Assembly: GCF_000003815.2 (NCBI RefSeq)
Contig: NC_049988.1
Span: 3,104,419-3,168,418, forward strand
Source: Branchiostoma floridae
Taxonomy: Eukaryota; Chordata; Leptocardii; Amphioxiformes; Branchiostomatidae
Direction of reading: 5' to 3'
Length of the DNA stretch: 64,000 nucleotides
The notes under the pieces: generated by a model
Told to the model about the DNA's origin: nothing
The model's database searches: none
Seen by the model: the letters and a program-made list of their open reading frames with translations, nothing else
Shown: positions 14,901 to 20,900 of the stretch, piece after piece
Layout: each line of letters begins with the position of its first letter
Position numbering within the stretch: position 1 is the first letter of the stretch
Translations under genes and position numbers: made by a program

Positions 14901-17900
14901 TTCCTTGGGACGATAGCTCAGCTTACTGTGGACAATGGCGCTGAAAATGCCACAGCAAACATGGGTCAAGCTGCTCCAAACTTCGACGACTTTGCAGGGC
15001 AAGACACCATCCAAGTTGGGAGCCAAGGTGGGCAGGGATACTTCAAGGGATGCATGAAGAATCTACGTGTTGGTGGAGTCCTCCTGCCGTTCTTTGAGTC
15101 TTCACAGATCCCGACCAATGCCTCTAAGAAGTTCAACCTGAAGTCAGCCAGTAGCATCACCGTCGGCTGTACAAGCGACGATGTTTGTGGCCCACAGCCT
15201 TGTGTCAACGGCGTCACCTGCACTGACATCTTCAACGACTACAACTGCACCTGCGTGCCGGGATACTCTGACAAGAACTGCAACACCAACATTGACGACT
15301 GTATATCATACCCTTGCCAAAACGGAGCGACGTGTATCGACCTCATCGCCCATTATACCTGCTCATGCACGTCGGGCTGGGAAGGAGTCAACTGCGAGCA
15401 AGAAGTGAACGAAGGTGAGAGCAGCCTTTGTCTGAATGTACTAATTCCTAAAGCCTATTTATGTACTAATCGCGTAGTCCCGTCAGCCCCGGTCAAAACA
15501 TTGTTAGCTTACCTTTACCCGTGGGATAACCTATATCCGTTGTTTTGAAAACAGAGCATTTAGGGATCTTAATAAGTCCACGAAGGGTGGTTTAAAAATG
15601 CAACATCTTTTTATATAATAAATCCACTGTCTTTAGAGAGAGGCTTTATTTTTTCAATTAGCTGTGATACAAATATTAATAAATTGCACACTGCTAGTCT
15701 TCCTGGACATAAAACAGGATATTTTGGGATCGAAATTGAAGCTATCTGTCATAGGTGAGCTTCAACACAATCCGGTAACATTCTAAAATGTAGTTGCCTT
15801 GTTTTGAACCGTTGTACACTACCAGTTGTAACGTCATAATTACGCCATATTACGTTATATTACGTTAGCGTCAAACTTCTTTTACTTGTCAGATAGCATG
15901 TCTACATCATTTCCTAAAAATGTGGTGGCCATACGACACGTCGTTTAAGAGTTATAGGACTTAAAAGTGGAGGGCCTCAAAAGCCCCCCGGTCCAGGGAT
16001 GACCAAAAAAAAGCCCGGTCTGAATAGGGTTAACGAATAATGACCTGTCCATTTCCTCTTCAGCATCTTCTGTACCACTTGAACCTTCCTCTGGATCCAC
16101 ACCCATCATCATCACCACCACAGTAAAAATGAACCAACCGGAAGCTTCGTCTCGTACTTCAGTCATCATCATCAGTATACTCGGTGGATTGTTAGTGATT
16201 TTCATTGCAGCTGCGGTATTATTTTTATTCAGGCGGGGACTACTACAAAGAAATTGTAAAGGTCAGTTATTTGAAGCCACTCCTTTAAAATGATTTATGT
16301 TTTAAGCAGTGTAGGTTTGAATATCTTCGTAGGTTAGGATATATTTACCGAGATTAAATGTTGGATCGTGAAATTCAAATGTGTGACTAGAAGATGCTCA
16401 TTAGAATAACTGTATATATCCATACGAATGACAGTACGGCTAATTACATTTCTACAGGCTTTACTACAGAGCAGAGAGAAGATGATGTAGAGCTTTCCCA
16501 GCAGGTATCTATTAGATATATTTTGCACCTAAAACCTCTCGACTTTAAAAAAGAAAAAAAGGAATTTTGGGAAAAATTTCTACTGTAAGTGCTATGTACT
16601 TTCTTAACTACCACCACAGATTCAGAATACCAATGGAGGCTATCAGGATCTACAGCAAACCCAACAAAACCAGGTTAGCCAAATTATTACACTTTGAACA
16701 TGTGAAGATTTAGATGCCAATTGTATCATTTTCATGTCTCCAAAATTTGGTAGATGAAGTTCGTTTGAGGTTTATTATCTAAATGTTTCATTTTATTATT
16801 TCACTGAGAAATCTATGATAAACCAACCTTATATCCTGGCAGTCAATGTTGGTTCCATGCTGGTTTTTATGTAGCAATGCCAAAACCTTCGAAAGCCTTT
16901 GCTATCAGGTTGATCTGACGGTCTCCTATAGTTTGTTTAAGATGTAGCAAACCTTGTGTTATAGCCATGACCATGTAGGTAGAGTGTTCACCTTACAGCC
17001 GGTAGGTCTTACATGTAAGTTATATCCCAGCCGAGTCATACCAGAGACTTTAAAATGGTACGTGCTGCTTTCATGTTGAACACGCAGACCGCTATCAGTC
17101 CAAAACTCCTTATTGTAGTGATTGCACAAAAGCTGTGTTGCCAGGTCTACAGCAACAAAGATGGCGGCCACCATATGTACCATTTGGTGCAGGAAGGGCT
17201 TTAACTTTTTAACTCACCTTGGGATGATGTCTGGTGATGTATTTTTCCAGGCCGTGGATGTGAATCATGACTACCAAGGCCTACAGCCACCCGACGCAGT
17301 TGGCTATCAGAGTTTACAGCCGCAGAGACCCCATCAAACTCAGGCAAGTGTGATTCGTACGTTTTGTTATTAAATACTTTATTCGTAATATCTTACATTG
17401 CTGCTGCTGATGTTTTGTGTTCGTTCCCCCGGCCGGATCATGCCAATGGCTTTGAAAACGGTACATGCTTCTTTCTCTGCTTGGAACTCATCACGTGGAA
17501 AAGAGTATGTTAGTTGAACACACACCATTACGAGGGGACTAGCACCCTACTGTAGTGATCACACAAACGGTGTGTTGCCCAGAGCTACAGAAACAGAGAA
17601 GGGCGCAACTCCGTGCACCATTTGGTGCGGGAAGGACTTTAACTTTTTAACTAACCTTGGGTTGATGTCTAGTAATGTATTGTTCCAGGCTGTTGGTGTT
17701 AATGGTGACTACCAAGGCATACAGCCGCTTGATGCAGATGGCTATCAGAGTCTACAGCTGCCCCATCAAAATCCGGCACGTATGATTCTTATTTACTAAA
17801 TAGTCATTATTCTCAATTTTTATATTGCTGCTGCTAATATGTTGTGTTTATGTCTCATTTAGAAATGGTACATGCTGCTTTCTCTTCTTAACACTGTTGT

Positions 17901-20900
17901 GAAAGAGTTATAATAGTTAAACACACAGACCACTACCGGTGGACTGAAGGGACTTTTAACTTACCTGGGATTGATCTTACTTACTAAATACAGTATTCGT
18001 ACAAATGTAATGTTTAACATTGCCGCTGCTGATATGTTGTGTTCGTTTTCACGACCGAGTCATACCAAAGAATGGTTTCACTAATTAGCAATAAGCATGG
18101 GGAGAGAATATATGGTATTTGAACACACACAGCAGAGCACTAGCCCTCTACTGTAGTCATTGCACAAAAGTTGTGTGGCCCAAGGTCAACAGACACGGAG
18201 ATAGGCGCCACTCCGCGCACCATTTGGTGAGGGAAGGACTTTAACTTTTTAACTAACCTTGGGTTAATGTCTGATATTGTATTTTTCCAGGCTGTGGGTG
18301 TTAATAACGACTACCAAAGCCTACAGCCGCTTAGTGTAGATGGCTATCAGAGTCTACATCTTTCCCATCAAAATCAGGTGTGGTTCTTACACACTAAATA
18401 TATATTCATAACACATAAAAAATTATTCGCAAAGTTTTAATATTGCTGCTGCTGATATTTAATGTTCGTTTCCCCGACCTGCTTCTTACCTTGCCTAACA
18501 TCCAGTATCAGGAAAAGAACATGATAGTTGAACACGCAGACCACTGCCGGTTGACTAGCCCTTTTGTTGCAAGAAGGACTTACCTTGAGTTGATGTCTGG
18601 CTTGTTGATTTTTCCAGGCTGTCGGTGTGAATCACGACCTCCAAGGCCTACAGCAGCCTGGTGCAGATGGCTATCAGAGTCTACAGCTACAGCGACCTCA
18701 TCAAAATCAGGCAAGTGTGATTCTCTTTCTATTACTAAATACATTATTCGTAATATTTGATATTGCTGTTGATGATATGTTATGTTCGTGACTCCGGTCG
18801 GGTCATGCCAAAGACTTTAAAAACGGTACAAGCTGCTGCTTTCTACATGCTGCTTTCTCTGCTTAAAAATCAGCATGTAGAGAAGATAATGGCAGTTGAA
18901 CGAACACCACTACCAGGTGTAGAAAGGACGCAAAACTATTCAGTTAACCTTGGGTTAATGTCTAGTAATGTATTTTCCAGACTGTGGGTGTTGATCACGA
19001 CTACCAGGGCCTACAGCCGCCTGGTGCACATGTCTGTCAGAGTCTACAGCGACCCCATCAAAATCAGGTAAGTACGGTTCTTGTGTCATAAATACATACT
19101 TCCCAATGTTTCATGATAGAGTCAATTCCGAGTCACCGAGAGGGTTTTAAAATAATATTTGTAATAAGTTTGAACTATTTAAAGTAAAAGAGTTTTTCAG
19201 TCACTATAGTTCTAAATTATTCAAACAATTAAAAATTTAAGTTTGAACATGTCTGAACCTATTCATATTTGTTGGAAACATTGGGAAAGTAACAATACGA
19301 ATATCTCTTTATCTAGAACAATTTTCAAACATCTATGTGCTTTTGATATTGTTCCGACATGTTCCAACAATTTGTGTCATTTCATCCCTGCGTAAAAAAT
19401 GTTATTGCCCCAATAAACAAAGGTGCTAAGTTGGGTCCTTTGTTTGGTCTTGTATTTTTAGATTTTGTTCAGAAGACACTGGTGAGTCTTTTGTGAAAAG
19501 GTGGCAGACAGACATGATTTCCTGTACTTGGAAAGATTGTGTGAATTGCCCTCTTTCCAGCCCACTGCCCCAGATACAGAACATTGTATCAATGTTCGAA
19601 CATGTGATCACAAACGATGAATCTATGTTGGAACAGTTAAGAAACTAACAGAAATAATGTATTTGATGTTAGAAATTTTTCTAACATGTATGAACACTAT
19701 AGAAAATATTTTGAACATCACACAGATGTTATAAATAGTTTTAAACAGTTACTTATCACAGATAGATTGTTACAAAGATTTCCAAAATGTTGGAACAAAA
19801 GGCAAGAAACACCCTCTCGGTAATGTAGAATTGACTCTATTGCATCTGCTGATATGTTGTGTTTGTGTCAACATTAACTCTTAAACAACAACATTCCTTT
19901 TAAATTTATGTCATACTTCTTTACAGGGAAATGTAGATACTGCAGAAAATGAATATGAAGACGTGGGTTCTAGCTATGAATTCCCACGTAACTTAGTGGC
20001 CCTTAAAGATTGTATTCAGGACGGAGACTTTGGAGCTGTTTACAAGGCTGAGGCATGGGGTATTGCGGGAAGGGAAGGTGCTTCTCTCGTAGCTGTCAAG
20101 ATGATGACCCGTAAGTTTAGTATTTATGTACATATTTGTAGTTGCTTTATCATTGTGATTACTTGCATTGTTTCTGCTACGTATCAATTTATACAGACAT
20201 GATATAGATCTGGCTTTAGCGTGGCAAAAAAAAAAATACAATGGGGTTTAATACAATGGATGTACAGGTAAATCTTATATAAGTTACGATAAAAGTTTTT
20301 TTAATCATGAGTTTTGATCTCACATATACTTGTTTGGTTGTACAAAATCCTCTTTATAAAATAAGAATGATTCACCAGGATGATGTCACAGGAAAAGACC
20401 TTCTGATGATGTAAAGTGCATGTTAACAATCATGTACATTTTCCGTCTGCGGTCTTCTGGCGAAAAATGTTAACATGTTAACAGGATGACATCACACGAA
20501 CAAAACCTATTGATGTAAAATGATAACAATCTTCTACTTTTCATTCTTTGTGACAATTCTTTATCTGTATCTGTATCTGTATCTATATAGCCGGTATAAC
20601 CGCCATTTGGCGTAACACACCAGCTTCGCAGGCACGCGGTGCGGCAGCAGCTGGTTATATTACACTGAACGATCCCAAGACTTTTCGTGAACAATGTCTC
20701 ACATAGTTATTCGTTTGACTGTGATGAAATCAAGATAATGAACCTTGCAATTTTTCTTATATGATTGCAGCTAAGTCGGCTTCTGCTTCTGCCACCACTT
20801 TCCTAGAGGAGTTTAGGGTTCTGAGGATGGTGGACAACCATCCAAACATTGTACGTCTGCTGGGATGCTGCACCAAAGAAGGTTTGTGCATCAAGTTCAT

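Follow-up and report, generated by a model that had tools for sequence, protein, structure and literature searches.

A lancelet receptor kinase gene with a tandem array of ITAM-like exons, from a family carrying paired YxxL motifs

Signalling through immunoreceptor tyrosine-based activation motifs (ITAMs) and Syk is usually described for immune receptor chains that are not themselves kinases. CD3-zeta, one such chain, carries three ITAM copies. Here we analyze a predicted receptor gene in a 64,000-nucleotide stretch of the genome of the lancelet Branchiostoma floridae (the window; C10:3104419-3168418) that, like the CD3-zeta, FcR-gamma and DAP12 chains, has cytoplasmic paired YxxL motifs with 6–12 residues between them, in several copies, and the tandem SH2 domains of Syk or ZAP-70 as the expected reader. 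Unlike these chains, the lancelet receptor possesses its own ectodomain and kinase domain, encodes each repeat in one phase-0 exon and is not matched by the Pfam ITAM profile; its array most likely originated independently of ITAMs of the CD3-zeta, FcR-gamma and DAP12 type. The gene encodes a single-pass receptor of a 14-gene FGFR/RET/TIE-like family with paired YxxL motifs ahead of the kinase and at the C-terminus. Its relatives in this genome have motif pairs of a similar kind, which suggests that receptor kinases in this lancelet may be wired directly to Syk-type immune signalling.

The individual parts of this receptor have counterparts elsewhere. ErbB3 and other receptor pseudokinases have an impaired kinase and serve as phosphorylated docking platforms, with PI3K-type YxxM sites in the case of ErbB3. 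The likeness to the lancelet receptor is that of a docking receptor with an impaired kinase; the difference is that the lancelet sites are ITAM pairs. FGFR, RET and TIE-2 have kinases similar to the window kinase and different ectodomains, and are not known to carry an ITAM array. Receptors of the Draper/CED-1 family, which are single-pass and act outside antigen recognition, signal through YxxL motifs to the tandem-SH2 kinase Shark. The hemITAM of CLEC-2 signals with Syk (PMC9731471). Draper/CED-1 and CLEC-2 are single-pass YxxL receptors like the lancelet gene product, act outside antigen recognition and have no kinase domain. In pYtags a receptor tyrosine kinase carries ITAM repeats in the same chain: three repeats on EGFR recruit the tandem SH2 domains of ZAP-70, also in cells lacking Src, Yes and Fyn (PMC10202457). 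The pYtags are man-made, C-terminal and attached to an active kinase, whereas the lancelet gene is natural, its array is juxtamembrane and its kinase is probably dead. ITAM-bearing receptor kinases of lancelets are undescribed in the titles and abstract openings that were searched; the 2008 survey of amphioxus tyrosine kinases (D'Aniello et al.) may list the genes. The parts are known; absent from those titles and abstract openings is their combination in cis, which occurs twice per chain in most of the paralogues and, in the window gene, is amplified while residues of the kinase are lost. If true, this would provide a natural counterpart of the pYtag receptors and a testable path for interconversion between receptor kinases and immunoreceptors.

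The exon array and kinase domain of the window gene

The gene model was built by hand from splice sites, with the signal peptide and the transmembrane helix judged by eye. It comprises 21 exons, from 5849-5927 through the stop codon at 24561, and encodes 1299 amino acids with no internal stop (Table 1). Pfam identified three laminin G (LamG) stretches (Laminin_G_2), three EGF stretches and a tyrosine kinase domain (PF07714, E = 1e-85) in this protein, and the order of signal peptide, ectodomain, transmembrane helix and tyrosine-kinase domain is that of a receptor tyrosine kinase. An earlier reading of the window, made from its letters alone (the sequence-only reading), had proposed that a LamG/EGF ectodomain, a multi-ITAM segment and a kinase domain are joined in one polypeptide, which the single open frame bears out.

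That reading had also placed one 54-nucleotide (nt) and five 87–93-nt phase-0 exons between the membrane helix and the kinase, three of them with an exact YxxL/I-x7-YxxL (x7 denoting seven intervening residues). Base-by-base re-reading confirmed both points, and the full pair is present in r2, r3 and r4, or three of the five long exons. All six exons (r1-r6) have lengths in multiples of 3, share a single reading frame and follow AG acceptors; the donors are GT in three exons and GC in r2, r3 and r5, on which the sequence-only reading was silent. In the gene model the array lies on the cytoplasmic side, between the transmembrane helix and the kinase. This juxtamembrane segment contains nine YQxL/I sites, which form three full x7 pairs, and the tyrosine-to-tyrosine register is kept in all five long exons although two of them differ by two codons elsewhere.

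Shuffling the 211-residue juxtamembrane segment (50,000 shuffles) produced at least one pair (x6-8) in 1.5% of cases and three pairs in 2 per 100,000. Because the array copies are tandem duplicates, the fairer chance figure is that of a single unit, and shuffling the 31-residue r2 unit (200,000 shuffles) gave a pair in 0.03%. The repeats extend into flanking intron and therefore represent segmental tandem duplications. Searching the assembly (513,431,437 bases in 431 contigs) with r2-r4 at E <= 0.001 returned four matches, all at the window locus. An assembly artefact was considered and rejected, as the copies differ by many substitutions in both exons and introns. Synonymous divergence (dS) is 0.64-0.77 between r2 and the other copies and 0.11-0.30 among r3-r6. 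The ratio of nonsynonymous to synonymous divergence (dN/dS) averages 0.42 from repeat to repeat and is 0.16-0.34 for r2 against the others; the evidence for constraint is moderate for r2 and weak for the youngest copies.

The DFG aspartate binds magnesium, and its change to asparagine is a standard kinase-killing mutation. The window kinase has NFG in place of DFG and glutamine in place of the first G-loop glycine; the lysine, HRD and APE are retained. No other family member lacks the DFG aspartate or the first G-loop glycine, both being retained by 13 of 13 paralogues; in the window gene, 13 further columns that are invariant across the paralogues are altered as well, 15 in all. Because NFG replaces DFG and the first G-loop glycine is lost, the window kinase is probably a pseudokinase. 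The label 'receptor tyrosine kinase' given by the sequence-only reading accordingly fits the descent of the domain (PF07714) and probably not its activity, given NFG and the degenerate G-loop. In a tree whose paralogue sequences were partly assembled from matches, the window gene is sister to the 13 paralogues (support 80), and no other member of the 14 has so short a kinase branch (0.222 vs 0.224-0.418). By sequence, the PDB kinases nearest to the window domain are one concatenated EGFR construct and, behind it, FGFR1, RET and TIE-2. At k5, where the window gene has a GC donor, GT occupies the corresponding position in the 11 intron-bearing paralogues, which supports this boundary.

Paired motifs across the paralogue family

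We identified the family by a kinase C-lobe search combined with a juxtamembrane/N-lobe query. It has 14 members including the window gene, below which the E value of the juxtamembrane/N-lobe query jumps from 1.4e-11 to 2.8e-4. Eleven of the 13 paralogues bear introns (L035-L045), and two on C16, L005 and L006, are intronless in the part read and perhaps retrocopies. The latter two (C16:16612642-16621557) are divergently oriented; both have an intact DFG, one YxxL pair in the juxtamembrane part and another at the C-terminus. By eye, the L006 ectodomain is Ig-like. The arrangement is not unique to the window gene, because in each of the 13 paralogues a pair is found in the juxtamembrane part, in the tail or at both places. 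On this sequence comparison, the window array appears as the amplification of a family trait.

The intron-bearing paralogues have two short phase-0 exons ahead of the kinase, alpha then beta, with boundaries inferred from splice signals. The alpha exon is 54 nt in most and ends in GYQSLRIPHRR, and the beta exon is 45 nt and reads SDHTYQGLTARS. Twelve of the 13 paralogues encode a juxtamembrane YQSL...YQGL at the corresponding position; for the thirteenth, L039, no alpha exon was found within 670 translated bases. The spacing is x11 in ten paralogues (nine intron-bearing ones, including L041 and L045, and L006) and x7 in two (L040 and L005). In these counts L045 is taken as x11 from a later donor read by eye, a cut at the earlier GT giving x4, and L041 as x11 despite a beta exon without a GT donor. 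L041 (C15:4006400-4016399) has AT where this donor is expected and is possibly a defective copy. In L005 the alpha-like segment is doubled (FQSL, YQSL). Exons r2-r6 of the window gene may have arisen by fusion of beta and alpha into one exon that was then multiplied. That the array motifs were kept merely through tandem copying was an explanation tested on the paralogues, whose motifs sit in separate exons, and it was set aside. Across the ten intron-bearing genes in which the two short exons could be compared, YQSL is spelled in 8 ways at the DNA level and YQGL in 9, with the residues unchanged.

A second pair is found in the C-terminal tails. L005 ends in YIDL-x7-YENL and L006 in YINL-x7-YANL, and all nine further tails fit DYI(D/N)LA(S/T)LD(E/D)NTY(T/S)SLQT, that is, YIxL-x7-YxSL. 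Taken together, YI(D/N)L-x7-YxxL is present in 11 of 11 recovered tails of the 13 paralogues, those of L040 and L045 not having been located. An aspartate or glutamate stands three residues ahead of the second tyrosine in 9 of 9 fetched intron-bearing tails. In the window gene the tail reads YIIL-x7-YNNP, and this second pair is lost.

As a control we used 28 other lancelet kinase loci out of 154 listed C-lobe matches, which are not independent, many coming from one expanded group. A pair with 6–12 intervening residues was found in 0 of 25 juxtamembrane segments (three loci with fewer than 60 residues were excluded) and in 0 of 28 tails, these being partial, mostly under 60 residues, and in one locus missing altogether. 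The absence of a pair from these 25 juxtamembrane segments does not support the view that such pairs arise by chance in lancelet kinases. We also observed that receptor-kinase-like genes with long open frames are greatly expanded in this genome (C1, C4, C5, C7, C8, C12 and others).

A candidate Syk partner and the weighing of explanations

The sequence-only reading had looked to a Syk-type tandem-SH2 kinase as the partner of the array, and we sought one in the same genome with a human SYK tandem-SH2 query sequence. The query matched at C15:6243573 with 42% identity, and pieces of a C-terminal SH2 domain (C-SH2) lie about 0.9-2.4 kb after that point, the first of them about 0.6 kb after the match to the N-terminal one (N-SH2). 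The best PDB matches of the N-SH2 are SYK (E = 1.9e-41) and ZAP-70 (E = 4e-38); the C-SH2 pieces were compared with the human SYK segment only. Tyrosine-kinase exons, recognized by their match to the window kinase, follow downstream, giving two tandem SH2 domains and then a tyrosine kinase, the Syk/ZAP-70 layout. The SH2 domains contain the motifs ISREE, LLRES, ISRDE and FLIRER, the last across an exon junction, whose arginines we take to be the residues that hold phosphotyrosine. SHARK, a relative of Syk, has ankyrin repeats between its SH2 domains; because the short SH2-SH2 distance leaves little room for such repeats, the C15 gene is probably Syk and not SHARK. The genome therefore encodes a Syk/ZAP-70-type tandem-SH2 kinase, in line with the expected partner. 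According to a review, SHARK is accompanied in invertebrates by just one Syk-like gene (PMC10253181). From amphioxus, Lck (PMC8211107) and slp76, GADS and Itk (PMC5431462) have been reported; the latter paper, from 2017, adds that its authors knew of no report of an amphioxus Zap70 homologue.

By the published definition (PMC9731471, PMC3528668), an ITAM consists of two YxxL motifs with 6–12 residues between them. Both the x7 pairs of r2, r3 and r4 and the x11 pairs of the paralogues satisfy it. The ITAM identity proposed by the sequence-only reading thus stands as far as spacing goes, the x7 pairs having true ITAM spacing, and fails on the Pfam profile.

On balance, we favor a reading in which the window gene would encode a kinase-impaired receptor that is phosphorylated by another kinase and recruits Syk via stacked ITAMs. 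During its evolution the juxtamembrane pair would have been multiplied by exon duplication, the tail pair would have decayed and catalysis would have been lost. Ligand binding by the LamG/EGF ectodomain would cluster the receptor, after which a Src-family kinase, or an active paralogue joined to it as a heterodimer, could phosphorylate the array tyrosines. Lancelet Syk would then bind the paired sites through its tandem SH2 domains, so that Syk output stands in for the lost kinase, and skipping of the phase-0 exons may alter the number of ITAMs. In the 13 paralogues, phosphorylation of the ITAMs could come from the receptor's own kinase, a possibility also raised for the engineered EGFR-ITAM receptors (PMC10202457). 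The gene structure, the motifs and their conservation in the paralogues, the NFG and a Syk-type gene are read directly from the sequence; phosphorylation, Syk binding, kinase inactivity and the partner receptors are all inferred here. More tentative, and in our view possible but short of probable, is the wider proposal of a 14-gene lancelet family whose juxtamembrane and/or C-terminal ITAMs, in cis with the kinase, would let one polypeptide prime Syk unaided, and in which the window gene would have lost its kinase, multiplied its juxtamembrane ITAM and gained a shared EGF/LamG ectodomain to become a free-standing multi-ITAM, immunoreceptor-like chain.

Several observations weigh against Syk recruitment by a stacked ITAM array. 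The Pfam ITAM profile is absent from the 1299-residue protein at E up to 1, and PF02189 matched 0 of 8 lancelet peptides (three window repeats, four paralogue peptides and the decayed window tail), where 3 of 4 human ITAM control peptides were matched and DAP12 was missed. The array has no acidic residue at Y-3, which is common in vertebrate ITAMs, YQxL is also compatible with a YxxPhi sorting signal, and the paralogue juxtamembrane pairs are mostly x11 rather than x6-8. Three array introns depend on GC donors, that of r3 being weak. In some young pairs of repeats dN/dS is near or above 1 (r3/r4 0.93, r3/r6 0.88, r4/r6 1.97), and because of this, and of the two of five long copies that lack one tyrosine, constraint does not extend to every copy. 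With the shortest branch in the family, the window kinase gives no hint, beyond the lost residues, of the relaxed selection possible in a dead kinase. Furthermore, the window gene is known here from the genome sequence of one lancelet alone.

The spacing of the motifs may be incidental if the tyrosines act as independent docking sites for single SH2 domains of the Src-family, SHP, PLCgamma or PI3K type. Juxtamembrane tyrosines of many receptor kinases dock single SH2 domains, sites in r1, r5 and r6 are unpaired, and x11 lies at the wide end of the published 6–12 range (as those sources give it). The presence of two separate paired modules in the same family, juxtamembrane and tail, and the lack of a juxtamembrane pair at the 25 other kinase loci speak against this explanation, which we regard as unlikely, though the least so of three. 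Similarly unlikely, and somewhat more so, is that the YQxL/I sites are YxxPhi sorting signals, with the unphosphorylated tyrosine binding AP-2 mu2 for endocytosis and the array setting receptor turnover. Every one of the nine array sites matches YxxPhi, of which YQRL in TGN38 is a well-known example, and neither the x11 spacing of ten paralogues nor the single halves lost in r5 and r6 requires pairing. Sorting signals, however, need neither pairing nor fixed spacing, whereas an x7 register is held in all five long exons and all 11 recovered paralogue tails, and the juxtamembrane spacing in two paralogues is x7 instead of the usual x11.

Least likely in our estimation is that the exons were amplified largely without selection while the gene gives up its part in signalling and retains the ectodomain alone, in a role such as that of a decoy or an adhesion molecule. 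The high dN/dS of some young repeat pairs, the broken r5 and r6, the tail YNNP and the lost kinase motifs would all be expected under such decay, but the frame is open across all exons, r2 shows low dN/dS against the other repeats, and the kinase keeps APE and has the family's shortest branch.

The ectodomain and other features of the window

An EGF/LamG gene at C8:14.638-14.642 Mb is 91% identical in protein sequence to exon C and 89% to exon D. Against this gene, dN/dS is 0.095 over 200 codons for exon C and 0.052 over the compared part of exon D, with dS about 0.44 for both. Purifying selection on exons C and D is thus strong, and their coding sequence is maintained. The LamG/EGF ectodomain is common to the window gene and the C8 gene, and could have been joined to the kinase half by exon shuffling, in either direction. 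Just upstream of exon A (window 8556-9313) are 3.5 tandem copies of a 212-bp unit, several of which contain the acceptor-like CTGTCCACAG.

Table 1. Exons of the predicted receptor gene, in window coordinates
Feature	Position	Strand	Basis
Exon 1, start codon and signal peptide	5849..5927	+	hand model; in-phase junction with exon A
Exon A, first LamG-like domain	9630..10166	+	hand model; Pfam
Exon B, first part of second LamG	12941..13132	+	hand model; Pfam
Exon C, remainder of LamG 2 and EGF-like repeats	13608..14204	+	Pfam; C8 gene comparison
Exon D, LamG 3 and EGF-like repeats	14641..15414	+	Pfam; C8 gene comparison
Stalk and transmembrane helix	16064..16261	+	helix by eye
x0, cytoplasmic linker exon	16458..16504	+	hand model
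r1, 54 nt, YQDL	16620..16673	+	counterpart of the paralogues' 54-nt alpha exon (YQSL) by length and tyrosine position
r2, 93 nt, YQGL-x7-YQSL, GC donor	17251..17343	+	base-by-base reading
r3, 87 nt, YQGI-x7-YQSL, GC donor (weak)	17689..17775	+	base-by-base reading
r4, 87 nt, YQSL-x7-YQSL	18291..18377	+	base-by-base reading
r5, 93 nt, LQGL-x7-YQSL, first Tyr lost, GC donor	18618..18710	+	base-by-base reading
r6, 87 nt, YQGL-x7-CQSL, second Tyr lost	18981..19067	+	base-by-base reading
k1, N-lobe, degenerate G-loop IQDGDFG, VAVK lysine	19927..20110	+	hand model; paralogue alignment
k2, helix C region	20771..20881	+	hand model
k3, hinge and kinase insert	21310..21491	+	hand model
k4, HRDLATRN catalytic loop, NFG replacing DFG	22137..22250	+	hand model; paralogue alignment
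k5, APE region, GC donor	22451..22562	+	11 intron-bearing paralogues have GT there
k6, C-lobe	23030..23126	+	hand model
k7, C-lobe	23614..23713	+	hand model
k8, C-terminal tail to stop, YIIL-x7-YNNP	24487..24561	+	decayed counterpart of the paralogues' tail pair

The remainder of the window contains further repeats. A minisatellite at 36338-37993 consists of 57 copies of a 29-bp unit with 95% matches, a direct 2.8-kb duplication with 89% identity joins 28140-30906 and 43300-46060, and an inverted 0.7-kb copy is found at 25214-25923 and 46294-46993. Identical 340-bp inverted copies lie at 51607-51946 and 58198-58537; one adjoins a run of N (411 N in all), and they may be an assembly artefact. 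Finally, five open frames contain a C-type lectin domain (40813-41256), an SRCR domain (48059-48424), a histone H2A domain (39608-40057), a death effector domain (52526-52924) and a sulfotransferase domain (61506-61790).

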